Position numbers and translations under genes: made by a program. Source: Nevskia sp. (GTDB lineage: Bacteria; Pseudomonadota; Gammaproteobacteria; Nevskiales; Nevskiaceae). From it: DNA of 52,397 nucleotides. How positions within the stretch are numbered: position 1 is the first letter of the stretch; every line of letters begins with the position of its first letter. The stretch lies in assembly GCA_016779605.1 (NCBI GenBank), contig JADHNH010000013.1, positions 1 to 52,397 of the forward strand, in the 5' to 3' direction. The notes beneath the pieces were generated by a model. It saw nothing but the letters and a program-made list of their open reading frames with translations. It made no database searches and was not told where the DNA came from. Of the stretch, positions 11,043 to 43,992 are shown piece by piece.

Positions 11043-11052
11043 GGATACGCTC

Positions 11053-26483: not shown

Positions 26484-26624
26484 GCCACACCGGCCACGGC
26501 CGCCGCATCTGCCGGCTCGCCGGTTCGCGGGGACCAGTCGTGGCGCCGGGGCGATGGTGGTCGCAGCCGGCGCTCCCGTGAGCAAACGCGTGTCGGCAAC
26601 GGAAGGCCAATGGCCGGTGTGGCC
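26483..26624. repeat. 142-bp intergenic element with 14-bp perfect terminal inverted repeats
   Basis: GGCCACACCGGCCA (26483-26496) at the end of the adenosyltransferase gene is repeated as its exact reverse complement, TGGCCGGTGTGGCC, at 26611-26624. The interior is GC-rich and structured (for example CCGGC/GCCGG near 26512-26523) and has no convincing coding frame. Read on the minus strand, the element ends in a T-run, so it may terminate the ampD-ampE-btuF transcript. A further small hairpin, ATTGAT/ATCAAT (26657-26672), straddles the btuF stop. It may be a non-autonomous mobile element or a terminator. Confidence 0.5.
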
Positions 26625-26667
26625 ATCGAAATATGGCGCCGCGAAGCGGCGGCGGCATTGATTTGTA

Positions 26668-27525: not shown

Positions 27526-28382
27526 CAGGCGATCCACGCCCCCATGGCGAGCAGCGCGGCGAAGGCCAGCAGGATCAGCAGCGCGCGGGTCTGCATGCGC
27601 AGCACCTCGGACAGCGCCGCGTCCAGCGACGAGGCCAGCACCGGCCCGCCGCCGTCCTCCCAGTCCAGCGCCGCGTTGGCCACCTCCGACAGCACCGCCC
27701 AGGTGTGCTGCCGCCAGTCGGCGGCGCCGTCCTCGTGGCGCAGGCGCCGCCAGGCCCACATCGAATCGTCCATGCTGCCGGCCAGCGCGAACAGCAGCGC
27801 CGTCAGGCGCGCCGGCAGCCAGGCGAACAGCGCGTGCTGCAGGGCCGCGCTGCGCGTGGCCGGCGTCGCGGCGTCGTCCAGCCCGAACGGCAGGCGGCTG
27901 GCCAGCCGGTAGGCGACGGCGCCGGCCGGGCCGCAGGCGATGAACCACCACAGCGTGCCGAACAGGCGCTCGTGCGACTGGATGAACAGGGCGCCGAGCA
28001 GGCTGCGGTGGTCCGCGTCCGGTTCCGGGCCCATCTGCAGCAGGCGGGTCAGCCGCGCCACCTCGCCGGAGTTGCCGGCGGCGCGCGCCGCGCGCAGCCG
28101 CTGCACGTCGTCGGCCAGATCGCGCGGGCCCAGGCACAGGAACAGCACGATGCCGGCATACAGCAGCCGCAGGGGCTCGGCCGGCAGCTGCCGCTCCAGC
28201 AGCAGGGCGAGCGCCGCGGCGCCCAGCACCAGCAGCGGCGGCATGATCGCCGAGTGCCAGAACGCCGGCAGCGCCAGGCGCTGCCGCAGCGCCGCCCACA
28301 GCCGCCGCTGCGCGGCGGCATCGCGGTACGGCGACAGCAGCCGCTCCGCCCCCAGCGCCACCAGCATGGCCAGCAGGTTCAT
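27525..28382 (-). CDS. ampE: AmpE-like inner-membrane protein
   Basis: A 285-residue protein with membrane segments near residues 1-15, 45-65, 70-90, 140-165, 190-215 and 265-283. MNLLAMLVALGAERLLSPYR, the FIQSHERLFGTLWWFIACGP stretch and ARLTALLFALAGSMDDSMWAW match AmpE, a member of the CobD/CbiB superfamily with a poorly understood role beside AmpD in beta-lactamase signalling. The ATG overlaps the ampD stop (ATGA). CbiB, a B12 enzyme, was considered because of the btuF neighbour; length and the ampD linkage favour AmpE. Confidence 0.85.
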   Translation of the reverse strand: MNLLAMLVALGAERLLSPYRDAAAQRRLWAALRQRLALPAFWHSAIMPPLLVLGAAALALLLERQLPAEPLRLLYAGIVLFLCLGPRDLADDVQRLRAARAAGNSGEVARLTRLLQMGPEPDADHRSLLGALFIQSHERLFGTLWWFIACGPAGAVAYRLASRLPFGLDDAATPATRSAALQHALFAWLPARLTALLFALAGSMDDSMWAWRRLRHEDGAADWRQHTWAVLSEVANAALDWEDGGGPVLASSLDAALSEVLRMQTRALLILLAFAALLAMGAWIA

Positions 28383-28945
28383 GCGGCCGCTTCCAGGTCG
28401 CGGCGCAGGCGCGCCCAGTCGAAATGCGGGCCGGGGTCGGTCTTGCGGTCCGGTGCGATGTCGCTGTGGCCAGCGACGCGTGCCGGCGTGATCGCCGGAT
28501 AGGCGCGCAGCAGGGCGCGGCCGATCGCCGCCAGCGCCACGTACTGCGCCTCCTCGAACGGCTTGGTGTCGCAGCCTTCGAGCTCGACGCCGATGGAGAA
28601 ATCGTTGCAACGGCTGCGCCCACCGTAGCTCGATTCGCCGGCGTGCCAGGCGCGCAGGTCGAACGGCACGTACTGGGTGACCGAGCCGTCGCGGAAGATG
28701 CAGGCATGCGCCGACACGCGGCGCCCGCCGAGGCCGGCGAAATAGGGATGCGCCGTGGTATCCAGGCGGTTCAGGAACAGGTCGTCGATGTACGGGCCGC
28801 CGAACTGGTCCGGCGGCAGCGAGATGGCGTGGATCACCAGCAGCGAGATCTCCGCCGGCTGCGGGCGCTGGTCGAAATTCGGCGACGGCTCGTACTCGGC
28901 GCCGGCCAGCCGGTGGCTGCCCGGGTCCACTGCCGTGGCCCGCAT
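28379..28945 (-). CDS. ampD: 1,6-anhydro-N-acetylmuramyl-L-alanine amidase AmpD
   Basis: A cytoplasmic zinc amidase that removes the peptide from anhydro-muropeptides in cell-wall recycling and lowers AmpC induction. Zinc ligands are visible: His in LLVIHAISLPP, then His and Asp in GHSDIAPDRKTDPGPHFDW, with the catalytic glutamate in GVELEG. PSPNFDQRP near the N-terminus aligns with PSPHYDCRP of E. coli AmpD. Aligning that segment favours the ATG at 28945 (188 aa); ATGs at 28951 and 28981 are alternatives and none has a strong Shine-Dalgarno. It is the first gene of ampD-ampE-btuF. Confidence 0.93.
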   Translation of the reverse strand: MRATAVDPGSHRLAGAEYEPSPNFDQRPQPAEISLLVIHAISLPPDQFGGPYIDDLFLNRLDTTAHPYFAGLGGRRVSAHACIFRDGSVTQYVPFDLRAWHAGESSYGGRSRCNDFSIGVELEGCDTKPFEEAQYVALAAIGRALLRAYPAITPARVAGHSDIAPDRKTDPGPHFDWARLRRDLEAAA

Positions 28946-29089
28946 CGGCATGCCGGGCCGCGCTCGTACCGGCGTGGTCATGGCGGGGTCGGCGCGGGTG
29001 GTGCCGGGGCGTCCGCCGACGGCCGCGGCGGCGGCCCAGCCAAACCGGCCGCCGCAGGCTCTACACTGGCGCTTCCAACGGGAGTCCCC

Positions 29090-31891
29090 ATGCGCACCAT
29101 TTTCACATTCGCCGCGGTGTTTTGCCTGGCCGCGTGCGCCGCATCCGCGCCGAGCCAGCCCGCCGCACCGGCCGACGCCGCGGCGCCGGCGGCTGCAGCG
29201 GCGGCCGCAGCGGGCGCCGGCGCGCTGCCGGAGGTGGACATCCCCTACACCCGGTTCGTGCTGCGCAACGGCCTGACCCTGCTGGTGCACGAGGACCACA
29301 AGGCGCCGGTGGTGGCGCTCAACGTCTGGTACCACGTCGGTTCCAAGGACGAGCCGGACGGCCGCCACGGTTTCGCGCACCTGTTCGAGCATCTGATGTT
29401 CGAGGGCTCCAAGCATTTCGACCACGACTTCTTCCGCGTGCTCGAGCCGGCCGGCGCCACCGACATGAACGGCACCACCAACGTCGACCGCACCAATTAT
29501 TTCGAGACGGTGCCGGTGTCGGCGCTGGACCGCGCGCTGTGGATGGAAGCCGACCGCATGGGCTTCCTGGCGCAGGCGATCAGCCAGGCCAAGCTCGACC
29601 AGCAGCGCGGCGTGGTGGAAAACGAAAAGCGCCAGGACGAGAACCAGCCGTACGGCAAGGTCGACGACCTGCTGGCGGCGCAGACCTACCCGCCGGGGCA
29701 CCCGTACTCCTGGACCACGATCGGTTCCGAAGCCGACCTCGACGCGGCCACGCTCGACGACGTGCGCAAGTGGTTCGCCACCTATTACGGGCCCAACAAC
29801 GCGGTGCTGGCGGTGGCCGGCGACGTCGACGCGGCGGCGTTGCGCGGCAAGGTGGAGCATTACTTCGGCTCCATCCCGCCCGGCCCGCCGGTGCCGCACC
29901 TGCGCAGCTGGCCGGCGCCGCTGTCGGCGGACAAGCGCATGACCACCGTGGACCGCGTGCCGCTGCCGCGCCTGTACCTGCTGTGGAACATGCCCGGCGA
30001 CGGCGAGCAGGACACCGTGATGCTGCAGATGCTGGCCGACGCCCTCGGCGGCGGCAAGGACAGCCGGCTGTACTCGCGCCTGGTCTACCGCGAGCAGATC
30101 GCGGCCGACGTGTCCGCCTCGGTGGACGCCAACGAGGCCGGCGGACAGTTCCAGATCGTCGCCACCGCCAGGCCCGGCGGCGACCTGGCGCCGGTGGAGC
30201 AGGCGATCCGCGAGGAAGTGCGGCGGATCGTCGAGCAGGGGCCGACGGCGCCCGAGCTGGAGCGGATCAAGACGCAGGACTACGCGGCCATGGTGCACGG
30301 CCTGGACAAGGCCGGCGGCCAGGGCGGCAAGGCCGGGCTGCTGGCCGCCAACGAGACCTTCCACGGCGACGCCGGGCATTACCGCATCGAGATGGCCTGG
30401 GAGCGGCAGGCCACCCCGGAGCAGGTGCAGCAGGCGGCTGCGCGCTGGCTCTCGCAGGGCAGCTTCGCGCTGCGCGTGCTGCCGCAGGACGACTTGAAGG
30501 CCGGCGCCGAGATCGCGGACCGCGCGCAGCTGCCGCCGCTGGGTACGCCGCCGCCGCTGAAGCTGCCGCCGCTGGCGCACGACGTGCTGTCCAACGGCCT
30601 GAAGCTGATCGTCGCCGAGCGCCACGGCGTGCCGGTGGTCAACGTCGGCCTGATGGTCGACGCCGGCCGCGCCGCCGACGCCGGCATCAAGTCCGGCACC
30701 TCGGCGCTGATGCTCGACATGCTCGACGAGGGTGCCGGCGCGCTGGACGCGATGGCAATCGCCAGGCGCCAGGCCGAGCTCGGCATCGGCATCTCCACCT
30801 CGATCACCCGCGACACTTCGCAGATCGGCTTTTCGGCGGTCACTTCCAAGCTGCCGGATGCGCTGGCCCTGTACGCCGGCATGCTGCGCCAGCCGACCTT
30901 CGCGCAGGCCGACCTGGACCGGGTCAAGCAGCGCCTGCTGGCCGCGATCGCCCAGGAAAAGGCCGAGCCGTTCGGCATCGCCCGCCGCGTGCTGTCGCGC
31001 CAGCTCTACGGCCAGGGCAGTCCCTACGCCTACGCCGGCCTGGGCCTGGAAAGCGACGTGCGCGCCATCACCCGCGAGGACCTGGTCGCGTTCCACGCGC
31101 GCTGGCTGCGCCCGGACAACGCCACCCTGCTGGTGGTGGGCGACACCACGCTGGCGCAGGTCAAGCCGCTGCTCGAGGCCAGCCTGGGCGCCTGGAAGGC
31201 GCCGGCTGAGCCGGTTCCGGTCAAGCACCTGGACGCGGTTGCCGCCGCGCCGGCGCCGCGCCTGATCCTGATGGACATGCCGGGCACCTCGCAGTCGCTG
31301 GTGCTGGCGGCCAACCTGGCGCCGCCGGCGTCCGACCCGGACGAGGAAGCCATGGAAACCGTCGAAACGGTGCTCGGCGGCATGTTCAATTCGCGGCTCA
31401 ACCTCAACCTGCGCGAGGGGCGCCACTGGAGCTATGGCGCCAGCGCGGCGCTGATCCGCGCGCGCGGGCCGCAGATCTTCCTGGCCTTCGCCAACGTCGA
31501 GCAGGCGCACACCGCCGATTCGCTCAAGGAGATGCGCAGGGAGTTGTCGGCCATCACCGGCGCACAGCCGCCGACCGCCCCGGAAACCGACGCCGCCAAG
31601 CAGTCGCAGGTGCGCTCGCTGCCGGGCGAATTCGAAAGCACCGGCGAAGTCGCCGGCGCCATCGGCCACCTGGTGGAGTTCGCCCTGCCCGACGACTACT
31701 GGAACCAGTATGTGCCGCGCGTGGAGGCGCTGCAGGCGCCGCAGCTGCAACAGGCCGCGGCCAAGATGATCAAGCCGGAGCAGCTCACCTGGATCGTGGT
31801 CGGCGACCTGTCCAAGGTGGAAGCGCCGGTGCGCGCGCTGGGCTTTACCGACGTCCGCGTGATGGACGCCGACGGCAAGCTGCTGCGCTAG
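29090..31891 (+). CDS. M16-family zinc protease, predicted lipoprotein
   Basis: A 933-residue protein with a lipoprotein signal (lipobox LAAC, Cys16) and an Ala/Pro-rich linker. Two M16 repeats follow. The first carries the inverted zinc motif HLFEH (His96, Glu99, His100) and the downstream glutamate in GVVENEKRQ. The second half (from about residue 500) lacks HxxEH and is the usual inactive partner, with RSLNL-like FNSRLNLNLREGRHWSYGA near residue 770. The pitrilysin-like pair would degrade peptides in the periplasm. The ATG has GGGAG 6 nt upstream. It is divergent from ampD and monocistronic. Confidence 0.92.
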   Translation: MRTIFTFAAVFCLAACAASAPSQPAAPADAAAPAAAAAAAAGAGALPEVDIPYTRFVLRNGLTLLVHEDHKAPVVALNVWYHVGSKDEPDGRHGFAHLFEHLMFEGSKHFDHDFFRVLEPAGATDMNGTTNVDRTNYFETVPVSALDRALWMEADRMGFLAQAISQAKLDQQRGVVENEKRQDENQPYGKVDDLLAAQTYPPGHPYSWTTIGSEADLDAATLDDVRKWFATYYGPNNAVLAVAGDVDAAALRGKVEHYFGSIPPGPPVPHLRSWPAPLSADKRMTTVDRVPLPRLYLLWNMPGDGEQDTVMLQMLADALGGGKDSRLYSRLVYREQIAADVSASVDANEAGGQFQIVATARPGGDLAPVEQAIREEVRRIVEQGPTAPELERIKTQDYAAMVHGLDKAGGQGGKAGLLAANETFHGDAGHYRIEMAWERQATPEQVQQAAARWLSQGSFALRVLPQDDLKAGAEIADRAQLPPLGTPPPLKLPPLAHDVLSNGLKLIVAERHGVPVVNVGLMVDAGRAADAGIKSGTSALMLDMLDEGAGALDAMAIARRQAELGIGISTSITRDTSQIGFSAVTSKLPDALALYAGMLRQPTFAQADLDRVKQRLLAAIAQEKAEPFGIARRVLSRQLYGQGSPYAYAGLGLESDVRAITREDLVAFHARWLRPDNATLLVVGDTTLAQVKPLLEASLGAWKAPAEPVPVKHLDAVAAAPAPRLILMDMPGTSQSLVLAANLAPPASDPDEEAMETVETVLGGMFNSRLNLNLREGRHWSYGASAALIRARGPQIFLAFANVEQAHTADSLKEMRRELSAITGAQPPTAPETDAAKQSQVRSLPGEFESTGEVAGAIGHLVEFALPDDYWNQYVPRVEALQAPQLQQAAAKMIKPEQLTWIVVGDLSKVEAPVRALGFTDVRVMDADGKLLR

Positions 31892-31967
31892 CTAGCGAAC
31901 CTTGAACGGCAACGGCACTTGCATCGGCGCCGGCGCCGGCAATGGCGCCGCGCGGCCGCCGCACGGC

Positions 31968-32276
31968 CTACTTCATCTCGCCGATCGGGCGCTGGAAGGT
32001 GTACTTGGCCGGTCCGCCGATCAGGGTGCGCGCGGGCCCGGAGAAGTTGCCGGTCACCGCCTCGAACGGCAGCCCGACCAGGAAGATACCGGTGCCGATC
32101 ACGGTGGCGGCCACGCCCAGGGGGCGCACCACGACCAGGTCCGCGGTCACGGCCTCGGGCGAAGGACCGGCGTCGGCGTTGGAATACAGGTTCGCGCTGT
32201 CGGCGCCGGCGCCGGCGGAAGCCGCCAGAAGCGAAGCGGCCAGGCCCAGGCTCAATCGACGAAACATGGCGGACAT
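31968..32276 (-). CDS. Small exported protein of unknown function (102 aa)
   Basis: A 102-residue protein with a signal peptide (cleavage near ASAGAGA) and one hydrophobic segment (about residues 52-72). The pattern RPLGVAATVIGTGIFLVGLPF then GPARTLIGGPAKYTFQRPIG resembles a small family in gammaproteobacteria that is often loosely labelled a multidrug transporter; I see no basis for a transport function. GGGGAGAGG 3 nt upstream of the ATG at 32276 supports that start over the ATG at 32267. It is divergent from trmL. Confidence 0.75.
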   Translation of the reverse strand: MSAMFRRLSLGLAASLLAASAGAGADSANLYSNADAGPSPEAVTADLVVVRPLGVAATVIGTGIFLVGLPFEAVTGNFSGPARTLIGGPAKYTFQRPIGEMK

Positions 32277-32389
32277 CTGCCTCTCCCCAATCGGTGCTCT
32301 CGAATATCTGCCGGCAGCCTAGGCCCCCCCTGCGCCAGTGTCAACTGCCGGATTCCGCGACGTTTTTGCCCGTCGAAAGGGCCGGCCCG

Positions 32390-32911
32390 ATGATCCGCGT
32401 GGCGCTGTTCGAGCCCGAGATCCCGCCCAACACCGGCAATATCATCCGCCTGTGCGCCAACAGCGGCGCGGCGCTGCACCTGGTGCGGCCGCTGGGCTTT
32501 ACGCTAGACGACGCGCAGCTGCGCCGCGCTGGCCTCGACTACCGTGAATATGCGCCGGTGCAGGTGCACGACAGCCTCGACGCCCTGCTGGAGACGCTCG
32601 CGCCGGTGCGCATGCTGGCGTTCAGCACGCGCGGGAAAATCCCCTACGATCGCTGGCGCTACGGCGCGGACGACCTGCTGCTGTTCGGGCCGGAGACGCG
32701 CGGGCTGCCGGCGGCGGTGCTGGAGCGCGTGCCGGAAGCGCAGCATCTGTACATTCCGCAGCGCCCGGGCATGCGCAGCCTCAACCTGTCCAACGCGGTG
32801 GCGGTGGCGGTGTACGAAGCCTGGCGGCAGGTCGGGTTCGCCGGGGCTGCGGTCCCGGACCCGGCGCAAGCCATACCCGCGCCGCACGCGGCAGGCGATA
32901 ATGCGGGCTGA
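32390..32911 (+). CDS. trmL: tRNA (cytidine(34)-2'-O)-methyltransferase TrmL
   Basis: A 173-residue SPOUT methyltransferase that 2'-O-methylates the wobble base of leucine tRNAs. MIRVALFEPEIPPNTGNIIR, LLFGPETRGLP and the knot segment GMRSLNLSNAVAVAVYEAW are the three SPOUT motifs in order. The ATG at 32390 is chosen by homology, since the open frame continues far upstream. It lies 21 bp ahead of the deoxysugar genes on the same strand and may share their transcript, although its function is unrelated. The C-terminal Ala/Pro-rich tail is not conserved. Confidence 0.92.
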   Translation: MIRVALFEPEIPPNTGNIIRLCANSGAALHLVRPLGFTLDDAQLRRAGLDYREYAPVQVHDSLDALLETLAPVRMLAFSTRGKIPYDRWRYGADDLLLFGPETRGLPAAVLERVPEAQHLYIPQRPGMRSLNLSNAVAVAVYEAWRQVGFAGAAVPDPAQAIPAPHAAGDNAG

Positions 32912-32932
32912 ACCGCCCCTGGAACCGGTCAC

Positions 32933-33700
32933 TTGAAAGCAGTCATTCTCGCCGGCGGCCTGGGCACCCGGATTGCCGAGGAAACCAGCCTGCGGCCCAA
33001 GCCGATGGTGGAGATCGGCGGCAAGCCGGTGCTCTGGCACGTGATGAAGATCTATTCGTCCCACGGGATCAACGATTTCATCATCTGCCTCGGCTACAAG
33101 GGTTACGTCATCAAGGAATATTTCGCCAACTACTTCCTGCACACTTCCGATGTGACCTTCGATCTGGCCAACAACCGGATGGACGTGCTGCACCGCCACG
33201 CCGAACCCTGGCGCGTGACCCTGGTCGACACCGGCGAGGCCACCCAGACCGGCGGGCGCCTGAAGCGCGTGCGCGACTACATCGGCGCGGAGGATTTCTG
33301 CCTGACTTACGGCGACGGCGTCGCCGACGTCGACATCGGCGCGCTGGTCGCCTTCCACCGCCGCCAGAAGACTCTGGCCACGCTGACCGCCTCGCAGCCG
33401 CCCGGGCGGTTCGGCGCGCTCGACATGGACGGCCACCTCATCACCGCCTTCCGCGAGAAGCCGCAGGGCGACGGCGCCTGGATCAACGGCGGCTTTTTCG
33501 TATTGTCGCCGCGGGCGCTGGACCTGATCGACGGCGACGACACCGCCTGGGAACGCGAGCCGCTCGAGCGGCTGGCTGCGCAGGGCCAGTTGTCGGCCTA
33601 CCAGCACACGGGCTTCTGGCAGTGCATGGACACGCTGCGCGACAAGAAACTGCTCGAGTCCCTATGGGAGTCGGGGCGAGCGCCCTGGAAGAGCTGGTGA
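32933..33700 (+). CDS. rfbF: Glucose-1-phosphate cytidylyltransferase
   Basis: A 255-residue nucleotidyltransferase making CDP-glucose from glucose 1-phosphate and [23 protein letters not shown] holds the GxGTR nucleotide loop, and [16 protein letters not shown] the catalytic lysine region. [14 protein letters not shown] and the C-terminal [20 protein letters not shown] are diagnostic of RfbF as opposed to the thymidylyltransferases. The start is TTG at 32933. It overlaps rfbG by 4 nt (GTGA). It commits sugar flux to the CDP-deoxysugar route encoded by the next five genes. Confidence 0.95.
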
Positions 33701-34782
33701 GCGGCGCGGCTGCGTTCTGGCCTGGCCGGCGGGTATTCCTGACCGGCCACACTGGCTTCAAAGGCGGCTGGCTGGCGCTGTGGCTGCGGCGCCTGGGCGC
33801 GATAGTGCACGGTTACGCGCTAGCGCCGCCGACCGAGCCCAACCTGTTCTCCCTGGCGCGGGTCGGCGAGGGCCTGCATTCGGTGATCGCGGACCTGGAC
33901 GATTGCGCCGCCCTGCGCCGCGCCGTAGAGCAAGCGCGGCCGGAAGTGGTCTTCCACCTGGCCGCGCAGGCGCTGGTGCACGAGGGCTACGAAGATCCGG
34001 CCGCCACCTACCGTACCAACGTGCTGGGCACTGTGCATCTGCTGGATGCGGTGCGCCATTGCCCAGGCGTACGCGCGGTGGTCAACGTCACCAGCGACAA
34101 GTGCTACGAAAACCGCGAGTGGGAGTGGGGCTATCGCGAGAACGACCGACTCGGCGGCTACGATCCCTACAGCAGCAGCAAGGCCTGCGCCGAACTGGTG
34201 ACCGATTCCTTCCGCAACGCCTTCTTCCCCCCAGCGCGCCACGCCGAGCACGGCGTGGCGCTGGCCAGCGCGCGCGCCGGCAACGTCATCGGCGGCGGCG
34301 ACTGGGGCCGCGACCGCCTGCTGCCTGACGTGTTCCGCGCCATCGACGCTGGCGCGTCGGCGCTGATCCGGCGGCCGCAAGCGGTGCGGCCCTGGCAGCA
34401 CGTGCTGGAGCCGCTGCAGGGCTACCTGCTGCTGGCGCAACGGCTGGTCGAGCAGGGCGCGGCGTTCGGCGAAGGCTGGAATTTCGGGCCGCCTGCGGAG
34501 GATGCCCAGCCGGTGCGCGAGGTCGTCGAGCGCCTGGTGCGGGCCTGGGGCGCCGAAGCCCGCTGGCACTGCGAGCCGATCGCGGCGGGTGCCCACGAGG
34601 CCGGCCAGTTGCGGTTGGACTGCGCCAAGGCGAGGGCTCGGCTCGGCTGGCAGCCGCGCCTGCGCTTGGAGCAGGCGTTGGACTGGACCGTGGCCTGGCA
34701 CCGCGCGCGCCGCCGCGACGAGGACCTGCGCGCGGAAAGCCTGCGGCAGATCGCCGCGTACGAAGCGCAGGGCGCCGCGTGA
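33697..34782 (+). CDS. rfbG: CDP-glucose 4,6-dehydratase
   Basis: A 361-residue extended SDR that converts CDP-glucose to CDP-4-keto-6-deoxy-D-glucose. [20 protein letters not shown] matches RfbG closely, with the NAD motif TGHTGFKG. The active-site stretch contains [14 protein letters not shown] and YDPYSSSK (Tyr-x3-Lys). [17 protein letters not shown] and [14 protein letters not shown] follow. The GTG at 33697 is preferred: it overlaps the rfbF stop (GTGA), has GGAAGAG just upstream, and gives the family N-terminus; an ATG at 33664 is the alternative. Confidence 0.95.
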
Positions 34783-36017
34783 GCGCCAACGCCTGCCGCT
34801 TCTGCGGCGCGCCGCTGTCGCATTCGTTCTGCGACCTGGGCATGTCGCCGCTGTCCAACGCCAACCTGCGCGCCGACCAGCTCAATGCGGCGGAGAAGTT
34901 CTATCCGCTGCACGCGTATGTGTGCGACCGCTGCTGGCTGGTGCAGCTGCCCGACCACGAAACGCCGGAAAACATCTTCGCCCGGGACTACGCCTATTTT
35001 TCCTCGTATTCGGACACCTGGCTCGCGCATGCGCGCGCCTACGTCGAGGAGATGATCGCGCGCTTCGGTTACGGTGCGCACAGCCACGTCGTCGAGATCG
35101 CCAGCAACGACGGCTACCTGCTGCAGTATTTCCAGCGCCGCGGAGTGCCGGTGACCGGCATCGAGCCGGCGCCGAACTGCGCCCGCGTGGCGCAGGACAA
35201 GGGCATCCCGACGGAAGTGCGGTTTTTCGGCGTCGCGGCCGCGCGCGAGCTGGCCGCGCAGGGCCGCTGCGCGGACCTGCTGCTGGGCAACAACGTGCTG
35301 GCGCACGTGCCCGACCTCAACGATTTCGTCGCCGGCTTGCCGCTGCTGCTCAAGCCGGGCGGCGTGGTGACCATGGAATTCCCGCATCTGCTGCGGCTGA
35401 TCGAGGGCAACCAGTTCGACACGATTTACCAGGAGCACTACTCCTACCTGTCCCTGCTCACCGTCGAGCGCGTCTTCGCCCGCCATGGGCTGGTGCTGTT
35501 CGACGTGCAGGAATTGCCCACCCACGGCGGTTCGCTGCGGATCTTCGCGCGGCACGCGGCGGATGCGTCGCGGCCGGTGGGCGCCGCGGTGCAGACCCTG
35601 CGGCGGGCGGAGCTCGCCGCAGGGCTCGCCGACACCGCCGCCTACGCGGCCTTCGCCGACCGCGTCTGCCGGACCCGTTACGCGCTGCTGGAATTCCTCA
35701 TCGCGGCGCGGCGCCAGGGCAAGACCGTGTGGGGCTACGGCGCGCCCGCCAAGGGCAACACCCTGCTCAACTACTGCGGCATCCGCGGCGACCTGCTGGC
35801 GGCCACGGTCGATCGCAGCCCGCACAAGCAGGGCCTGTTCCTGCCCGGCACGCACATCCCGATCCTGGCGCCGGAAGCGGTGGCGGCGGCGCGGCCGGAC
35901 TACCTGTTGATCCTGCCCTGGAATCTGCGCGACGAGATCACCGGGCAGATGGCGTATATCCGCCAATGGGGCGGGCGCTTCGTCGTACCTATTCCCGAAG
36001 TCGAGGTGCTGCCGTGA
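34779..36017 (+). CDS. SAM-dependent sugar C-methyltransferase (TylC3-like)
   Basis: A 412-residue protein with the three-part build of NDP-hexose C-methyltransferases. An N-terminal zinc-binding region (CRFCGAPL, then CDRCWLVQ) comes first, then a SAM-binding domain with VVEIASNDGYLL (around residue 106) and EFPHLLRLIEGNQFDTIYQE. A C-terminal domain carries WGYGAPAKGNTLLNYCGI. Homologues such as TylC3 methylate C-3 of 4-keto sugars. Sitting between the 4,6-dehydratase and an epimerase, it probably makes CDP-3-C-methyl-4-keto-6-deoxyhexose. The GTG start overlaps the rfbG stop (GTGA). Confidence 0.9.
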   Translation: MSANACRFCGAPLSHSFCDLGMSPLSNANLRADQLNAAEKFYPLHAYVCDRCWLVQLPDHETPENIFARDYAYFSSYSDTWLAHARAYVEEMIARFGYGAHSHVVEIASNDGYLLQYFQRRGVPVTGIEPAPNCARVAQDKGIPTEVRFFGVAAARELAAQGRCADLLLGNNVLAHVPDLNDFVAGLPLLLKPGGVVTMEFPHLLRLIEGNQFDTIYQEHYSYLSLLTVERVFARHGLVLFDVQELPTHGGSLRIFARHAADASRPVGAAVQTLRRAELAAGLADTAAYAAFADRVCRTRYALLEFLIAARRQGKTVWGYGAPAKGNTLLNYCGIRGDLLAATVDRSPHKQGLFLPGTHIPILAPEAVAAARPDYLLILPWNLRDEITGQMAYIRQWGGRFVVPIPEVEVLP

Positions 36018-36547
36018 AATTCGCGGACACGCCGCTGCCCGGTGTCGTAGTCATCGAGCCGGAACCGATCGTCGATGAGCGCGGCTTTTTCGCACGCCTG
36101 TTCTGCGCGCGGGAATTCGCCGCGCACGGCCTGGTGCCGCACCTGGAGCAGTACAGCGTGTCGTTCAGCGCACGCGCCGGCACCTTGCGCGGCATGCATT
36201 ACCAGGCCGAGCCTCACGCCGAAGCCAAGCTGGTGCGCTGCACGAGCGGTGCGATTTACGACGTGGCGCTGGACCTGCGCAGCGACTCGCCGAGCTTCAA
36301 GCGTTGGTTCGCGGTTGAGCTGTCGGCCGGCAATCGCCGTGCGCTGTATCTCCCGCAGGGTTGCGCCCACGGGTTCCAGACCTTGTGCGACGACGTCGAG
36401 GTGAGCTATGGCATTTCGGCTCCCTACGTGCCGGCCGCGGCGCGCGGCGTGCGCTGGGATGACCCGGCGTTCGGCATCGAGTGGCCGGCGGCGGCTTGCC
36501 GCACCATGGCCGAGCGCGACCGCACCTATCCGGATTTCCGCGGATGA
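36014..36547 (+). CDS. Sugar nucleotide 3,5-epimerase (RmlC/RfbC family)
   Basis: A 177-residue cupin. RGFFARLFCAREF, the catalytic-His segment RGMHYQ (around residue 64), YLPQGCAHGFQTL and the C-terminal GVRWDDPAFGIEWP define the RmlC family. The tyrosine acid is probably in SAPYVPAAARG. No dTDP-rhamnose genes (rmlA, rmlB, rmlD) are present, so the substrate is more likely the CDP-4-keto sugar made by the neighbouring enzymes; epimerisation at C-5 would give the L-configuration. With C-3 methylated, C-3 epimerisation may not apply. The GTG start overlaps the previous stop (GTGA). Confidence 0.9.
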   Translation: MKFADTPLPGVVVIEPEPIVDERGFFARLFCAREFAAHGLVPHLEQYSVSFSARAGTLRGMHYQAEPHAEAKLVRCTSGAIYDVALDLRSDSPSFKRWFAVELSAGNRRALYLPQGCAHGFQTLCDDVEVSYGISAPYVPAAARGVRWDDPAFGIEWPAAACRTMAERDRTYPDFRG

Positions 36548-37452
36548 AGCGGGTGCTCGTGACCGGCGCTTCCGGCTTCATCGGCCGGCAGGTGCTGGCG
36601 CCGCTGCTGGCCAGCGGCTACGAAGTGCACGCGGTGGCGCGTCGCTGCGCGCCGTCAGCCGGGATCGCCTGGCATTGCGCCGACTTGCTCGAACCCGGCA
36701 GTGCGCGCCGGGTGCTCGATGCGGTGCGTCCCAGCCACCTGCTGCACCTGGCCTGGTATGCCGAGCACGGCAAGTTCTGGAGCGCCGCCGAGAACTACGC
36801 CTGGGTCGGTGCCACGCTGGAGCTGCTGCGCGCGTTCGCCGACGCCGGCGGCCGCCGCGCGGTGGCGGCAGGTACCTGCGCCGAATACGACGTGCGTTAC
36901 GGCTATTGCGACGAATCCATCACGCCGACGGCGCCGGCCAACGATTATGGCGTGTGCAAGAACGCGATGCGCGCGCTGTTCGACGCCTATTGCGCACGCC
37001 GCGGTGTGAGCGGCGCCTGGGGCCGGCTTTTCCATCTCTACGGCCCGCATGAGCATCCGGCCAGGCTGGTGGCATCGGTGGCGCGGTCGCTGCTGCAGGA
37101 CGAAGACGCCGCCTGCAGCCATGGCCGCCAGCTGCGTGACTTCCTGCACGTGGCCGACAGTGCCGCGGCGCTTGTGGCGCTGCTCGATAGCGACGTAACC
37201 GGCGCCGTCAATATCGGCTCCGGGCAGGCGGTCAGCATCGGCGAAGTGGCGCGGCGGCTGGCGCTGCTGGCCGGGCGCCCGCAGCGGCTCCAGCTGGGTG
37301 CGCGACCCGCGCCCGCGGGCGAGCCGCCGGTGCTGATCGCGGCCACCCGGCGACTGCACGAGGAAGTCGGCTGGCGGCCGCGCCACGGGCTCGACGCCGG
37401 CCTGCAGTTGACGCTGGACTGGTGGCGCAACGAATTGAAATCCCCCGCTTAG
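36544..37452 (+). CDS. NAD(P)-dependent sugar epimerase/4-ketoreductase
   Basis: A 302-residue extended SDR with the Rossmann motif GASGFIG (residues 8-14), a Thr/Cys catalytic region AAGTCAEYD and a YGVCK (Tyr-x3-Lys) active site. GRLFHLYGPHEHPARLVAS and NIGSGQAVSIGEVARRLALL are typical of the family. In this position it is expected to reduce the 4-keto group of the CDP-sugar and finish the deoxyhexose. Epimerase activity cannot be excluded. The ATG overlaps the epimerase stop (ATGA), so its translation is coupled to the upstream gene. Confidence 0.88.
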   Translation: MKRVLVTGASGFIGRQVLAPLLASGYEVHAVARRCAPSAGIAWHCADLLEPGSARRVLDAVRPSHLLHLAWYAEHGKFWSAAENYAWVGATLELLRAFADAGGRRAVAAGTCAEYDVRYGYCDESITPTAPANDYGVCKNAMRALFDAYCARRGVSGAWGRLFHLYGPHEHPARLVASVARSLLQDEDAACSHGRQLRDFLHVADSAAALVALLDSDVTGAVNIGSGQAVSIGEVARRLALLAGRPQRLQLGARPAPAGEPPVLIAATRRLHEEVGWRPRHGLDAGLQLTLDWWRNELKSPA

Positions 37453-37471
37453 ACCCGCGAGACGCCCGCTA

Positions 37472-38239
37472 GTGAAAATCCTCATCGACACCGACGGCAA
37501 AACCCTGGTCTGCGGCGAAGGCGCTGCCGCGCGCACGCTGCCGCTGTACGGCGACGAAGCCTTCGAGATCCTGTCCGAACATTGGCTCAAGGTCGGCTGG
37601 AACCAGAAGTACCCTTATACCTTCAGCTGGATGGGCCGGCCGGTCATCCAGCTGCCGGAAGACCTGCTGCGCGCGCAGGAAGTGATCTACCGGCTCAAGC
37701 CCGACGTTATCATCGAGACCGGCGTCGCCCACGGCGGTTCGCTGATTTTCTACGCCAGCCTGTTCAAGGCGATGGGCCATGGCGGCCGCGTGATCGGCGT
37801 GGACATCGAGATCCGCCCGCACAACCGGCGTGCGATCGAAGCGCATGAGCTGTTTCCCTATCTCACGCTGATCGAAGGCAGCTCGACCGATCCGGCGATC
37901 GTGGCGCGGGTCAAGTCCCAAGCCGCTGCGGGGCAGTCGGTGTTGGTGATCCTCGACTCCAACCACAGCAAGGCGCATGTCGCAGCGGAACTCGTCGCCT
38001 ACCACGACCTGGTGACCCCGGGTTCATATATCGTGGCCACCGATGGCAGCATGAAGGACCTTCACGATGTGCCGCGCGGCAAGCCGGAGTGGATCTGGGA
38101 CCATCCGACCGCGGCGGCGGCGGAGTTCGCCTTGGCCCATCCGCAGTTCGTGCTGGAGCAGCCGCCCTGGCCGTTCAACGAGAGCAGCCTCAAGCACAAC
38201 ATCACGCACTGGCCAGGCGCCTGGCTCAAGCGCCTGTGA
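37472..38239 (+). CDS. CmcI/cephalosporin-hydroxylase-family sugar O-methyltransferase
   Basis: A 255-residue protein of the CmcI family. Despite the hydroxylase name, these are SAM-dependent methyltransferases that include rhamnosyl O-methyltransferases. The SAM-binding core is IIETGVAHGGSLIFYASL, followed by the acidic GVDIEIRPHNR and a metal-binding type LVILDSNHSKAHV. SYIVATDGSMKDLHDVP and EQPPWPFNESSLKHNI are characteristic. Next to the deoxysugar genes it probably O-methylates the CDP-sugar or the finished glycan. The start is GTG at 37472. Its stop overlaps the next gene (GTGA). Confidence 0.88.
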   Translation: MKILIDTDGKTLVCGEGAAARTLPLYGDEAFEILSEHWLKVGWNQKYPYTFSWMGRPVIQLPEDLLRAQEVIYRLKPDVIIETGVAHGGSLIFYASLFKAMGHGGRVIGVDIEIRPHNRRAIEAHELFPYLTLIEGSSTDPAIVARVKSQAAAGQSVLVILDSNHSKAHVAAELVAYHDLVTPGSYIVATDGSMKDLHDVPRGKPEWIWDHPTAAAAEFALAHPQFVLEQPPWPFNESSLKHNITHWPGAWLKRL

Positions 38240-39570
38240 GCTTTTCGCCGCTCGTGGTGCTGCCCACGCGCAACCGCGCGGAGCTGGCGCTGACCGCCCT
38301 GGGTTCGGTGCTGGAGTGCCCGGAGCAGGAACTGCGCGTCTGGGTTTCCGACAACTCCACCGACGCCGCCCAGGCCGAGCGGCTGCGCGCCGCCTGTGCC
38401 GGGCTCGGCGATCCGCGCCTGCAATACCTGCGGCCGGACGAGCCGCTGTCGATGAGCCGGCACTGGGAGTGGATCGTTCAGCGTGCGCTGGCCGAGGGCG
38501 CAAAGCCGGGTGCGGCGACGCACCTGGCCATGCTCACCGACCGCATGGTATTCGTCGCCGGCGCGCTGACGGACCTGCTGCGCGCGGCCGCGCGCCATCC
38601 GCAGCATGTGCTGGTCTACCCCAACGATCACCTCGACGACCTGCGCCAGCCGGCGCGGCTCAACCAGCACGAATGGACCGGCGCCGTGGTCGAACTGGAC
38701 AGCACGGCCTTCATTGCGCACATGCGTGCGAGCGGCTGGAGCATCGCACTGCCGCGGCTGCTCAACTGCATGGCGCCGCTGGCGGTGTGCGAGCGCCTGC
38801 GCGCCGCTTACGGCAACGTGCTCGACTCCATTTCGCCCGATGTCTGCTTCGGCTTTCGCGTGCTGGAACGCGAGCCGAATTTCCTGTTCCTGGACCGCCC
38901 GCTGATCGTCGACTACGCCATCGCCAGGAGCAACGGGCACAGCGCCGCGCGCGGCATACAGACCGGCGACTTCAAGGATTTCCTGCGGCAGCTCGACGCC
39001 CGCGGCATGAACTTCCTGGCGCCGGTGCCCGGACTGCCGGGCCCGGTCAGTTCGGTGTTCCACGAATACAACGCGGTGCGCGCGCACTCGCATAGCCCAC
39101 GGTTTCCCGCGCTCAACCTGGCGACCTCGCTGCGCCTGCTGCGGGGCGAGCTGCGCCGCGTGGAGGACCCGCAGGAGCGCCAGCTGCAGCAGGCGGCGGT
39201 GGCGCACTGGCGCCGCCGGCGGCTGGCCGAAGGCATGCCCGCCGGCACCTGGCGCGACCGCGCCGGGCGCATCGGCGCCAAGCTTGCGCCGGGCTATCTC
39301 GGCCGCAAGCTGGTCAAGTCGCTGTCGCGGCGCCGCAGCGATTACCGGAGCGCCTTCTGGCGCCTCCTCGGGCGTTGCGGAATGCGGCCTTACGCGGTGG
39401 GCGAGCGCATCAGCGAGTGGCTGGATCCCGCGGCCGCGCTGGCGCACGCCCGCACCCGGCCGCTGCCGCCCGTGCCGGCGCTTCCGGGCCTGGCGTACCG
39501 GGTACCGGGGCGGCTGGTCGAGGTGGGCTCGCCGGCGTCGTCGGGCGGTGCGGGCGAGGCGGCGCCTTGA
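38236..39570 (+). CDS. Glycosyltransferase family 2-like protein
   Basis: A 444-residue protein with an N-terminal GT-A domain: PLVVLPTRNRAELALTALGS at the start, a DNSTDAAQAERL nucleotide-binding segment, and the metal site apparently as MLTDRMVF. The C-terminal third (about residues 290-444) is basic and rich in Arg, with no recognisable domain. The start is GTG at 38236, overlapping the O-methyltransferase stop. It probably transfers a sugar to a surface glycan; the donor is unknown but may be the CDP-deoxysugar made by the upstream genes. Confidence 0.82.
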   Translation: MSFSPLVVLPTRNRAELALTALGSVLECPEQELRVWVSDNSTDAAQAERLRAACAGLGDPRLQYLRPDEPLSMSRHWEWIVQRALAEGAKPGAATHLAMLTDRMVFVAGALTDLLRAAARHPQHVLVYPNDHLDDLRQPARLNQHEWTGAVVELDSTAFIAHMRASGWSIALPRLLNCMAPLAVCERLRAAYGNVLDSISPDVCFGFRVLEREPNFLFLDRPLIVDYAIARSNGHSAARGIQTGDFKDFLRQLDARGMNFLAPVPGLPGPVSSVFHEYNAVRAHSHSPRFPALNLATSLRLLRGELRRVEDPQERQLQQAAVAHWRRRRLAEGMPAGTWRDRAGRIGAKLAPGYLGRKLVKSLSRRRSDYRSAFWRLLGRCGMRPYAVGERISEWLDPAAALAHARTRPLPPVPALPGLAYRVPGRLVEVGSPASSGGAGEAAP

Positions 39571-40691
39571 GCACGGAGCAGCCCTTCATCCTGTTCGTGC
39601 CGTCCTACGGCAAGGGCGGCAGCGGGGAGTTCGTGCGCTCAGTGTCCTTGGCGCAGGCCGCCCAGGCGCGCTGGCCTCAAGCGCGCATCGAGTTCCTGCT
39701 GCCGGGCGGCGCGGGCACGCGCCAGGATGCGCCGTTTCCCAAGCATTGCCACGCGGGGCCCGAGGACGACAAGGACGCCTTCGACCGCGAACAGATCCTG
39801 CGGCTGCGGCCGCAGCTTGCCGTGTTCGATTCAGGCTGCCGCACCTCGACCCTGCGGCTGTGCCACCGCCTGGGCATCCGCACGGCCTATATCAGCGATC
39901 GTCACGGCACCCTGCGCAAGGCCTTCCGCCTGGAGTGGCTGTGGCGTCTCGACGCGCATTGGCACCAGCGCGAGCACCTGACCGCCCCCCCATTCACGCC
40001 GCGCCAGCGCCTGCTGGCGCGGCTCGGCCGCACGCGGCGCCTGCATTTCGACACCTATTTTCCGGAAGCAGCGGCAGACTGGAGCCAGCTGCCGGCGGTC
40101 CTGCGCGAGCGCCTGGTGCGCGGCTACGTGCTGTTCTCGCCCGGCGGCGGCGGCTACCGCGTGGATGGCCGCCTGATCACCGACGTGTTCCTCGACGCGG
40201 CGGCGCGCGTTCGCCGGGGCGCCGGCCTGGAATGCCTCACCCTCCTCGGCCCGCTGTATCCCGGTGCCGCGCCCGACGACCCGGAACTGCCGACGCTGCG
40301 GGAAGTGCCGCAGGCGCTGTTCCTCGAGCTGATGCGCAGGGCCAGGGTGGTGGTGACCAACGGCGGCCATTCCCTGCATCAGGCGCTGGCCCGCGGCGCG
40401 GTGTGCGTCGCCGCGCCGCTGGGCGGCAGCGACCAGCCGGAACGCATCGAGGCCTATGGCAAGGCCGGCTTGGTGCGCGCGGCGGCGCCGGCGGCGGAGA
40501 CGCTCGCCGCGGCGGCCTGTGCGCTGGCGGGGGACGCCGCCGCCTGCTCGGCGATACGCCGGCGCATCGCCGCCCTGTCGATCCGCAACGGCATTCCGGT
40601 GATGCTCGACGGCATCGCCGGCCTGCTCGGGGAGGCCGCCGCCCCGGCCGTGCCGGCAGCTTGCTCCGGCACGGATGTAAGCTCAGTGTAA
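39567..40691 (+). CDS. GT-B-type glycosyltransferase-like protein (MurG/PseG-like C-terminus)
   Basis: A 374-residue protein. The N-terminal half (FILFVPSYGKGGSGEFVRSV) and the second half (LFSPGGGGYRVDG, then VVVTNGGHSLHQALARGAV and APLGGSDQPERIEAYGKAG) look like the two Rossmann halves of GT-B enzymes related to MurG or PseG. The glycine-rich GGHS loop would bind the nucleotide. The only start that overlaps the previous gene is TTG at 39567 (TTGA). Activity and acceptor are unknown; the context indicates surface glycan synthesis. Confidence 0.75.
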   Translation: MSTEQPFILFVPSYGKGGSGEFVRSVSLAQAAQARWPQARIEFLLPGGAGTRQDAPFPKHCHAGPEDDKDAFDREQILRLRPQLAVFDSGCRTSTLRLCHRLGIRTAYISDRHGTLRKAFRLEWLWRLDAHWHQREHLTAPPFTPRQRLLARLGRTRRLHFDTYFPEAAADWSQLPAVLRERLVRGYVLFSPGGGGYRVDGRLITDVFLDAAARVRRGAGLECLTLLGPLYPGAAPDDPELPTLREVPQALFLELMRRARVVVTNGGHSLHQALARGAVCVAAPLGGSDQPERIEAYGKAGLVRAAAPAAETLAAAACALAGDAAACSAIRRRIAALSIRNGIPVMLDGIAGLLGEAAAPAVPAACSGTDVSSV

Positions 40692-40802
40692 AAAACTGTG
40701 AACTTGCTGCCGAGTGCCCCGATAGAAGCCGGATTTCCCGTACCCTCGCGGTTGATCGCCTTGAAGCTCCCACCAGCCCAACGACTGGCAAGGTATCCAC
40801 CG

Positions 40803-41780
40803 ATGAAGCAGCGGGCCCTCAGAAAAGTCTTCGTGGTCGGTTGCCAGCGCTCCGGCACGTCCGTCATGCAGTCCGCGATCGCGCGCGCGGCCGGGCTGTA
40901 CACGCTGCGCGAGACCCACTACTTCGTGCACCTGCTGGGCGGCCAGGATCACTGGGTCTTCGACGACGAGGCGCTGTTCCGGCGCAAGCTGCGCGGCCGG
41001 CTTGCGCTGATGCGCGCCCGCACCTACAGCGAGTTGCGCCAGGACATGAGCGAGCTGCTGGGCGACCCGGCGCTGCGGCTGCGCCTGCGGCCGCGGCTGA
41101 CCGGGGCCGGTTACGTGGCCGAGTTCCAGCGCCTGATGAACGCGGCGGCGAGCCATTACGGCACCGCCGGGTGGCTGGAAAAAACGCCGTGGCACCTGCC
41201 TTACCTGGACATCATCCGCAGCCATATCCCGGATGCCCGCTTCATCCATGTCGCCCGCAACGGCGAGGACGTGGTGGCCTCGATCATCGACGGCGAGATG
41301 CGGCATTTCGAGCAGCGCTGGTTTCTGGGCGGCCTGGGCTATGCCGTGCGGCTATGGAACCGCGCCATGCAGACCCACCTGGCCTACGCCGGCCAGCCGG
41401 GCCACCTGGTGCTGCGCCACGAGGACTTCGTCGCCGACCCGGTGCAGACCCTGCGCCGGGTGCTGCAATTCCTCGACCTGCCGGCCGACGCGGTCGACCT
41501 GGGCACCGCCGCGCCGCCGGCGGCGGCGGAGCTTGCCGCCGCGCCATGGAAAAAGCATTGGCTGGCCGGTCCGGTCACCGCCCAGCGGCGCAAGTTCGAG
41601 ACCTTGATGAGCCCGCCGATGCAGCAATGGGTAAAGACGCGATTGGAAGACTACGAAAGGGTCTCGGAGGTGTTGGCCGAATGCCTGGCGCGCGCGGGCC
41701 ATGCCCTGCACGAACCGCGTTCGATGCAAGGCAGGGCGGCAGTGCAGGGCGTGGCATTCGCCAGCGGGGTCGGCCGCTAG
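40803..41780 (+). CDS. Sulfotransferase-family protein
   Basis: A 325-residue protein with the PAPS 5'-phosphosulfate loop GCQRSGTS (residues 13-20) and a 3'-phosphate segment FIHVARNGEDVVAS (about 144-157). WLEKTPWHLPYLDIIRSHIP and LRHEDFVADPVQTLRRVLQFL also match PAPS-dependent sulfotransferases. It probably sulfates a sugar or lipid of the same glycan. The ATG at 40803 is chosen; the 111 bp upstream (40692-40802) are less GC-rich than the flanking genes, appear non-coding, and may hold an internal promoter. Its stop overlaps the next GTG by one base (TAGTG). Confidence 0.87.
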   Translation: MKQRALRKVFVVGCQRSGTSVMQSAIARAAGLYTLRETHYFVHLLGGQDHWVFDDEALFRRKLRGRLALMRARTYSELRQDMSELLGDPALRLRLRPRLTGAGYVAEFQRLMNAAASHYGTAGWLEKTPWHLPYLDIIRSHIPDARFIHVARNGEDVVASIIDGEMRHFEQRWFLGGLGYAVRLWNRAMQTHLAYAGQPGHLVLRHEDFVADPVQTLRRVLQFLDLPADAVDLGTAAPPAAAELAAAPWKKHWLAGPVTAQRRKFETLMSPPMQQWVKTRLEDYERVSEVLAECLARAGHALHEPRSMQGRAAVQGVAFASGVGR

Positions 41781-42826
41781 TGCGCGTCGCGCTGGTGCAC
41801 CATGCCCTGAGCCGTTCCGGCGGCATGGAGTCCTACCTGGTGGACCTGGTCAAGGGCTTCGCGCAGGCCGGCGACTCGGTGGACGTCTGGGTGCGGCAGT
41901 TGGACCGCTCGCTGGCCGGCGAGCTCGGCGTCAAGGCGCGGCAGGTCGCGCGTCTGCCCCTGCCGCGGCTGGTGCGCAACTGGGCGTTCGCACTGGAGAT
42001 CGAGCGCGAGCAGCTGCGCGAGCGCTACGACCTGGCGATTTCGCTGGCGCGCACCGCCGGCCAGCACGTTGCCGTCAACGGCGGCACGCACCCCGGGTTC
42101 CTGGCCGCGATGGGCAAGCCCGCCTCGCTCAAGGACCGCATCGAGATCCGCCTGGAGCGGCGCGGCGTGCTGGCTTCCGGCCATGTCGTCGCGCACTCGG
42201 CGATGCTGGCGCGCGAGCTGTCCGCCTATTACGCGGTGGACCCGGCGCGGATGCAGGTGCTGTACCCGCCGATCGATACGCGCCGCTTCGAGCGTCGGCG
42301 CGCCGCGCGGCGCAGCCATGCGCGCGAAGAGCTGGGCCTGCGGCCGGGCGACTTCGCCTTCGTGTTCCCGTCCATGAGCCACGAGCGCAAGGGCCTGCCG
42401 GCGCTGCTGGCGGCGTTTGCCCGCCTGCAGGATCCGCGCGCGCTGCTGCTGGTGGCCGGCCGCGTCAGCGGCGCGCAGGCGAACGGCGTGCGCCTGCGCG
42501 AGCTCGGCTACGTCAAGGACATGCCGGCGCTCTACGCGGCGGCCGACTGCACCGTGCTGCCCTCGCGCTACGAGCCGTTCGGGCTGGCGGTGGCCGAGTC
42601 GCTGCAGTGCGGCACGCCGGCCATCGCCAGCGCCGCTTCCGGGGTGGCCGAGCTGATGGACGAGGACGACGGCGTGCGCCTGGCCGCCACCGACGCGGAA
42701 TCCATTGCCGCCGCCTTGCGCCAGGTACTGGAGCGGCGCTACCAGCCCGCCCCGGATTTCGCGCGGCGGCACGGCCTGGAAATCGCGCCGCACGTGGCGG
42801 CCTTGCGCGCCTTAGCCGGCGCTTAG
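41780..42826 (+). CDS. Glycosyltransferase family 4
   Basis: A 348-residue GT-B enzyme. The N-terminal [20 protein letters not shown] includes the GGMES-type acceptor loop, [19 protein letters not shown] opens the donor domain, and the EX7E motif is EPFGLAVAE with the following [19 protein letters not shown]. The [19 protein letters not shown] region resembles WaaG-like enzymes of LPS cores. The GTG start shares a base with the sulfotransferase stop. Its 3' end overlaps the convergent UDP-xylose synthase gene by 15 bp. A role in LPS or capsule assembly is inferred. Confidence 0.9.
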
Positions 42827-43783: not shown

Positions 43784-43826
43784 CGGGTTTCCGGCTCTTC
43801 GATCATGGTCAGTGACAGCGGCTCAA

Positions 43827-43972
43827 GGAAGCCCCGATTAATCGGGGCTTCCCGCTTGGGCCACGGATGGCCCAACCATTTCAACGGCGCAAGCCGTTGA
43901 AATGGAAGGCCGTTGAAAATCACACTTTTCAACGGCCGTCATCTGAACAAGTCCAGGATGGATTTGTTCAGA
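43827..43972. repeat. Block of five contiguous perfect or near-perfect hairpins
   Basis: Five inverted repeats fill 146 bp. (a) 43827-43852: arms of 13, GGAAGCCCCGATT and complement, no loop. (b) 43856-43875: TTGGGCCA/TGGCCCAA. (c) 43876-43905: CCATTTCAACGGC and complement with a GCAA loop. (d) 43908-43937: GGCCGTTGAAAA/TTTTCAACGGCC. (e) 43942-43972: TCTGAACAAGTCC/GGATTTGTTCAGA with one wobble. Arms of c and d can also pair with each other. On the minus strand, b and e carry the CATCC tip seen at 19431-19546. The block separates the cyclase gene from uxs and is probably a terminator/repeat cluster. Confidence 0.8.
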
Positions 43973-43992
43973 GTGCCCTTAAGTGTAGCCGC

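Follow-up and report, generated by a model that had tools for sequence, protein, structure and literature searches.

Cytidine diphosphate (CDP)-vinelose is a nucleotide sugar that was reportedly isolated decades ago from Azotobacter vinelandii; it is CDP-linked 6-deoxy-3-C-methyl-2-O-methyl-L-talose, i.e. a sugar that is already O-methylated. To our knowledge, most work on the CDP deoxysugar branch concerns 3,6-dideoxyhexoses and sugars branched by thiamine diphosphate (ThDP) enzymes, and a C-methylating branch on CDP that depends on S-adenosylmethionine (SAM) would be a further type, with a core that recurs in many genomes. Here we describe six consecutive genes which may encode such a route in a 52,397-nucleotide stretch of Nevskia sp. 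DNA (contig JADHNH010000013.1 of assembly GCA_016779605.1; the whole stretch is referred to as the window). The C3-methylation systems of deoxythymidine diphosphate (dTDP)-mycarose and D-tetronitrose (TylC3, TcaB9, MtmC) share with the window the C-methyltransferase family and its catalytic residues, but operate on dTDP in an antibiotic setting, whereas the window set belongs to CDP and an apparent surface glycan setting; mycarose also needs 2-deoxygenation genes, and none were seen in the window operon. CDP-yersiniose and CDP-erwiniose are likewise CDP-linked branched 6-deoxy sugars, but YerE and ErwE, in the available excerpt of their description, branch CDP-3,6-dideoxy-4-keto-glucose at the ketone with ThDP enzymes (PMC12247030), whereas in the window the methyl branch would come from a SAM-dependent enzyme, and rfbH is unmatched. 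In S. meliloti, three consecutive tags (SMb21416-21418) are tabulated as ddhA, ddhB and NDP (nucleoside diphosphate)-hexose 3-C-methyltransferase, a likeness to the window core drawn from a table entry only, in a passage that gives no product (PMC4053727). As an annotated set the core is not novel, since public records already carry its family names; in the literature searched, with most subscription journals outside it, we found neither an assigned product for the rfbF-rfbG-C-methyltransferase core nor any mention of vinelose, and most papers on 6-deoxy-3-C-methyl sugars there concerned Coxiella.

The six genes span 32933-38239, are co-directional and carry no internal stops on a frame check; four of their five junctions are 4-bp overlaps and the fifth is a 19-bp gap (Table 1). 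A first-pass annotation of the window had listed here RfbF, RfbG, a TylC3-like C-methyltransferase, an RmlC-like epimerase, a short-chain dehydrogenase/reductase (SDR) and a CmcI-like methyltransferase, and this observation is confirmed in both place and families. RfbF, RfbG and RmlC are called from scores above NCBIfam equivalog cut-offs; the CmcI homologue scores 87.5 bits against a cut-off of 400 for the NF045824 rhamnosyl O-methyltransferase model, and so belongs by score to the broader PF04989 family only. We read the set, with a probability of about two in three, as a predicted route to a CDP-6-deoxy-3-C-methyl-L-hexose carrying an O-methyl group, used in a surface glycan and possibly an isomer relative to vinelose. 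RfbF would supply CDP-glucose, and RfbG would turn it into CDP-4-keto-6-deoxy-D-glucose; the TylC3-type enzyme would transfer a methyl group from SAM to C3, beside the ketone, the RmlC homologue would epimerise C5 to give the L-series, the SDR would reduce the 4-ketone, and the CmcI homologue would add the O-methyl group, for which the analogy with vinelose makes O2 the most likely position. The product would enter a cell-surface glycan through glycosyltransferases encoded further down the operon. Every chemical step, the order of the steps, their regiochemistry and stereochemistry and the acceptor are what we infer from the families, the conserved active-site residues, the operon and its recurrence, which are seen directly in the sequences.

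The absence of rfbH and rmlB, noted in the first-pass annotation, also holds for the host assembly (4.08 Mb, 188 contigs, 94.99% complete). Throughout this assembly the RfbH (C3-dehydratase) model has no match at E ≤ 1e-10 and no RmlB exceeds the TIGR01181 cut-off (best 149.8 versus 365.1 bits), RmlA and RmlD not having been searched genome-wide. In agreement with the first-pass annotation, we therefore expect no dTDP-rhamnose and no CDP-3,6-dideoxyhexose, although in an incomplete assembly such absence falls short of proof.

Table 1. Genes of the putative sugar operon in the window and the A. vinelandii CA region used for comparison.
Feature	Position	Strand	Evidence or remark
rfbF, glucose-1-phosphate cytidylyltransferase (CDP-glucose)	32933-33700	+	TIGR02623 466.6 bits, cut-off 300.25
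rfbG, CDP-glucose 4,6-dehydratase (CDP-4-keto-6-deoxyglucose)	33697-34782	+	TIGR02622 481.8 bits, cut-off 278.45
TylC3/TcaB9-type sugar C-methyltransferase	34779-36017	+	Pfam PF08421, PF13489 and PF08484; solved relatives; TcaB9 residues
RmlC-type 5- or 3,5-epimerase	36014-36547 (GTG start at 36014)	+	TIGR01221 170.1 bits, cut-off 155.75
Extended SDR, probable 4-ketoreductase	36544-37452	+	PF01370 143 bits; function inferred from place in pathway
CmcI/rhamnosyl-O-methyltransferase-family methyltransferase	37472-38239	+	PF04989 236.7 bits
Probable GT-A glycosyltransferase (N-terminus by eye), no family match	38236-39570	+	Overlaps the cmcI-like gene
374-aa protein	39567-40691	+	4-bp overlap with the preceding gene
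Sulfotransferase	40803-41780	+	PF13469 90.8 bits
GT4 glycosyltransferase	41780-42826 (GTG at 41780; profile listing 41777-42826)	+	PF00534, PF13692, PF13439
A. vinelandii CA region, ~2.847-2.875 Mb	L052 3014-18190; L053 3869-12344		Cluster itself at ~2.855-2.861 Mb

Methylation at C3 is suggested by the C-methyltransferase itself, in which all three parts of the Methyltransf_13/23/14 architecture are present (the Zn-binding, SAM and C-terminal domains). Its solved relatives are the D-mycarose 3-C-methyltransferase 4rv9 (E 5e-82), TcaB9 (3ndi, 3e-73), given in the accessible part of one source as the C-3' enzyme in D-tetronitrose production (PMC9539859), and 5t64, a ‘sugar 3-C-methyl transferase’ (1e-71). 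All sugar C-methyltransferases named among its 11 PDB matches are C3 enzymes. Of the five residues that we take, together with their roles and numbering, to form the TcaB9 active site, Tyr76, His181, Tyr222 and His225 are identical in every one of the 44 rows aligned and Glu224 in 43 of them, and the window and the two Azotobacter sequences have all five; an offset of 2 fits this numbering to two mutant chains among the PDB matches. The presumably catalytic His66, Lys76, Tyr136 and Asp173 of the window RmlC (62, 72, 132 and 169 when counted from the GTG at 36014) are invariant in the seven rows aligned, as are Gly8, Gly11, Gly14, Tyr135 and Lys139 of the SDR in its own seven. A noviose-type route, in which the RmlC homologue would first epimerise C3 and methylation would follow at C5 to give a 5-C-methyl, 4-O-methyl product on CDP, needs the same enzyme classes: they make up the NovU/NovW/NovS/NovP pathway, where NovU methylates C5, NovW (2c0z) is among the matches of the window RmlC, and rmlC precedes the C-methyltransferase gene in A. 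vinelandii. We nevertheless regard C5 methylation as improbable, because the sugar C-methyltransferases matched in the PDB are C3 enzymes whose catalytic residues the window enzyme keeps, the window RmlC scores above the cut-off of a 3,5-epimerase model, and CDP-vinelose is a 3-C-methyl sugar.

With the genome of the window counted in both samples, the C-methyltransferase is present at E ≤ 1e-40 in 13 of 146 genomes, and among 321 genomes of the class it occurs in 45 at E ≤ 1e-60 and RfbG in 53 at E ≤ 1e-70. These 321 genomes hold 48 C-methyltransferase loci, 35 of them at least 46% identical to the window enzyme and 13 more distant; rfbG lies within 6 kb in 18 of the 35 closer loci and in 1 of the 13 distant ones. 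The closer enzyme was found in 34 genomes and together with rfbG in 20 (Fisher p 1.9e-9). We also surveyed the neighbourhoods of 42 fetched stretches plus the window, 41 of these 43 having a C-methyltransferase at least 44% identical to that of the window; from the 46 stretches fetched, L032 and L033 (34% identical enzymes) and L053 and L148 (flanks) were left out, and L139, with one in-frame TGA and 243 residues aligned, was counted here but left out of the tree described below. The survey loci were partly picked for having matches, and the 48-locus count of rfbG distances is the less biased. Near the C-methyltransferase, RfbF was counted in 37 of the 41 loci (with a doubtful one, 36% identical, passing by score in L122), RmlC in 35 and RfbG in 25, which ties this enzyme group to CDP and bears out the CDP scaffold of the first-pass annotation. 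The 25 loci with RfbG have RmlC in 23, a CmcI homologue in 16 and an SDR match in 17, the last figure including a doubtful match in L022 (26%, remote and on the opposite strand) that passes the score limit. A cmcI-type gene thus accompanies 16 of these 25 loci, against one of the 16 that lack RfbG (p 2.2e-4), so that CmcI is mostly tied to the RfbG type of locus.

The comparison that matters most for the product is with Azotobacter. A VnfG scan of genome contigs gave 13 loci including A. vinelandii CA, and in the genomes of six of the 13 we searched for the C-methyltransferase (E ≤ 1e-10) and RfbG (E ≤ 1e-30): both are present in A. vinelandii CA and A. chroococcum DSM 2286, and neither was found at these thresholds in A. 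beijerinckii, two Azomonas or one Pseudomonadaceae metagenome assembly. The first-pass annotation had tied its proposal to the occurrence of the set in CDP-vinelose producers and had suggested a look at the A. vinelandii genome; A. vinelandii CA does carry it, once at the thresholds used, with a single RfbF (E ≤ 1e-40), RfbG and C-methyltransferase in one cluster with RmlC, SDR and CmcI, and with an rfbH-model match far below the cut-off (138.6 versus 423 bits). The gene order is ugd (assigned by eye), rfbF, rfbG, rmlC, C-methyltransferase, hexapeptide protein, SDR, cmcI, PhyH and a TylF-type methyltransferase, followed on the other strand by a TPR/GT41/GT2 protein and then flagellin, whilst the other flank holds a sigma factor (probable fliA), an SRP54-type GTPase (probable flhF), flhA, flhB and cheZ. 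The region looks like a flagellin glycosylation island, and this location suggests that CDP-vinelose may have a role in flagellin glycosylation; the flagellin glycosylation literature searched, judged by listings, held nothing on Azotobacter flagella. If CDP-vinelose is a CDP-6-deoxy-3-C-methyl sugar, the cluster is by these models its only candidate locus in A. vinelandii, and it most likely makes CDP-vinelose.

The window resembles this cluster in having RfbF, RfbG, RmlC and the C-methyltransferase together, but differs in its SDR and CmcI subtypes; the A. vinelandii cluster is further set apart by its extra hexapeptide, PhyH and TylF-type genes and by its flagellar location. Identities between window and A. 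vinelandii are 68% for RfbF, 53% for RfbG, 47% for RmlC, 54% for the C-methyltransferase, 38% for CmcI and 26% for the SDR, whilst the A. chroococcum cluster, which has all six classes plus an additional Methyltransf_23/14 protein encoded between the SDR and CmcI genes, gives 70, 54, 47, 53, 66 and 42% in the same order. By best identity, the window CmcI falls into a first subtype with A. chroococcum, L028, L132, L137 and L145, and that of A. vinelandii into a second with eleven others (L131 and L147 placed by small margins). In the 25 RfbG loci, a window-type SDR accompanies the window-type CmcI in 5 of 5 cases and occurs in 1 of the 20 others; the p value of 1.1e-4 is a guide only, as the SDR limit (at least 36% and 170 bits) was chosen after seeing the table, with L137 (36%, 173 bits) just inside and L131 (35%, 103 bits, the other CmcI subtype) outside. 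This co-occurrence hinted that the methyltransferase reads the stereochemistry set by the reductase, but strict pairing had to be softened: on a plasmid of Azospirillum lipoferum 4B (L154, 8001-12557) a C-methyltransferase and RfbF stand with a window-type CmcI (58%) and an A. vinelandii-type SDR (44%), and no RfbG or RmlC match was found in the 17 kb read.

Since the end enzymes of the window are nearer to A. chroococcum than to A. vinelandii, its sugar may be an isomer of vinelose, a step that is not firm given the mixed subtypes in A. lipoferum. The window set is a sister of the A. vinelandii cluster. It may make the A. chroococcum-type sugar, which could be vinelose or could depart from it as a C4 epimer or in where the O-methyl group sits. 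In our judgement the window is unlikely to make CDP-vinelose itself, the same compound as in A. vinelandii: the two share the core and the same six gene classes, and mixing of SDR and CmcI types in Azospirillum means that subtype need not imply another product, but the window SDR (26%) and CmcI (38%) fall outside the A. vinelandii subtypes, and the hexapeptide and TylF-type genes found there are unmatched at the score limits in window positions 26001-45000 (PhyH was not tabulated). Of the vinelose-like sugar proposed by the first-pass annotation, the class is well supported and vinelose itself is not established, leaving its interpretation as a whole partly supported. Beside a window-type CmcI, a second Methyltransf_23/14-like protein occurs in A. 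chroococcum (L054, 12801-13970), L132 (4002-5405) and L028 (6700-7560), and no match to it exceeds the score limit in the window stretch 26001-45000.

Several observations weigh against the route as we propose it. The A. lipoferum plasmid speaks against a tie of CmcI to RfbG as well as against strict SDR-CmcI pairing. The idea that this C-methyltransferase group requires RfbG was rejected, as many loci have no RfbG nearby or genome-wide: in the remaining closer loci of the 35, rfbG lies 6.8 kb away in 1, on another contig in 2 and is without a match in the genome in 14, and several close enzymes (60-67% identical to that of the window, against 54% for A. vinelandii) have no RfbG nearby. Among the 16 surveyed loci without RfbG, RfbF is nonetheless found in 12 and RmlC in 12, and some hold a flavin adenine dinucleotide (FAD) oxidoreductase and another SDR instead. 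In a tree of 44 C-methyltransferase rows the window groups with its two nearest relatives, L022 and L023 (100/100; 73% and 72% identical), and A. vinelandii with A. chroococcum (100/99); both groups fall within one 37-row clade (100/100), but in separate subgroups of it. The L022 and L023 clusters have no SDR, and at its place in L022, where gene content was profiled (10107-12628), a hexapeptide protein (acyltransferase-like, with a weakly PglD-like N-terminus) and a DegT aminotransferase stand beside CmcI. Such an arrangement is consistent with a common 4-keto intermediate that is finished in another way, in L022 perhaps as the 4-amino form of the branched sugar, and it shows that the core genes alone do not reveal the end product.

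The end enzymes of the window are open to other readings. The best solved match of its SDR is MoeE5, presumably an epimerase, and the best matches include named epimerases. One alternative is that the C-methyltransferase reduces the 4-ketone itself and the SDR is an epimerase, in keeping with these matches, with 4rv9 as best solved relative of the C-methyltransferase, and with the 8 of 25 RfbG loci in which no SDR match lies near the C-methyltransferase (some contigs end nearby). The part of one source available describes TylCIII-type methylation as proceeding with inversion at C3, and states that an S. argillaceus enzyme of this type reduces the 4-ketone (PMC3539893). With an SDR match nearby in 17 of the 25 RfbG loci, even if that in L022 is remote and weak, we give a ketoreducing C-methyltransferase little credence. 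The CmcI homologue, for its part, may act on the finished glycan, so that the nucleotide sugar would be CDP-6-deoxy-3-C-methyl-L-hexose without the O-methyl group and methylation would come after transfer. Mycobacterial rhamnosyl O-methyltransferases act in this way, the Pfam family takes in glycan-level enzymes by name, the cmcI gene overlaps that of a probable glycosyltransferase, and window-type CmcI is found with two different SDR types. Transfer before O-methylation still seems to us somewhat unlikely, as window-type CmcI and SDR co-occur in the RfbG loci (A. lipoferum, the exception, is outside that set) and CDP-vinelose is already O-methylated. The O-methylated CDP-6-deoxy-3-C-methyl-L-hexose is our preferred reading of the product.

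Taken together with the Azotobacter data, this reading can be extended to a joint proposal, which we put forward tentatively and, as a whole, at a little under even odds: that CDP-vinelose would be made by the single A. vinelandii CA rfbF-rfbG-rmlC-C-methyltransferase-(hexapeptide)-SDR-cmcI cluster; that it would serve as the donor with which the neighbouring TPR/GT41/GT2 protein glycosylates flagellin; that it is one of a widespread family of C-methyl sugars on CDP whose end steps are interchangeable, namely ketoreductases and CmcI of two subtypes or an aminotransferase and acyltransferase; and that the window represents an isomer-making branch of this family. The gene assignment in A. vinelandii makes CDP-vinelose, an old orphan metabolite with a likely flagellar role, testable.

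The operon probably extends beyond the cmcI-like gene, to 42826, with a 111-bp gap before the sulfotransferase gene. The first protein beyond CmcI has no Pfam or NCBIfam match and no meaningful PDB match (best E 0.71), a 33% identical relative lies near the cluster in L023, and it is a candidate for the enzyme that transfers the new sugar; the 374-aa protein that follows likewise has no Pfam or NCBIfam family match. As the sulfotransferase sits inside a glycan operon, sulfation may occur on the glycan or on a sugar made alongside it. A second type of cluster was seen in L120 (4859-11138) and L121 (2379-9437), combining RfbF, an L-2-hydroxyglutarate-oxidase-like FAD protein, an SDR, the C-methyltransferase and RmlC without RfbG, and perhaps leading to a different CDP-sugar; L123, L125 and L126 resemble it by gene sizes only, and L120 also has a DUF4910 protein. 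A putative FAD-SDR-C-methyltransferase fusion in L118 (a 1157-aa frame) was dropped, its first 750 residues having no Pfam match and the long frame probably being a G+C artefact. The C-methyltransferase also occurs at E ≤ 1e-80 in 110 of 72,556 plasmid records, of which two were looked at; in one of them, from Peteryoungia desertarenae (L155, 1-9763), two RfbF-RfbG-C-methyltransferase-RmlC sets stand back to back on opposite strands, one accompanied by DegT and a gene of the cephalosporin-hydroxylase (CmcI) family.

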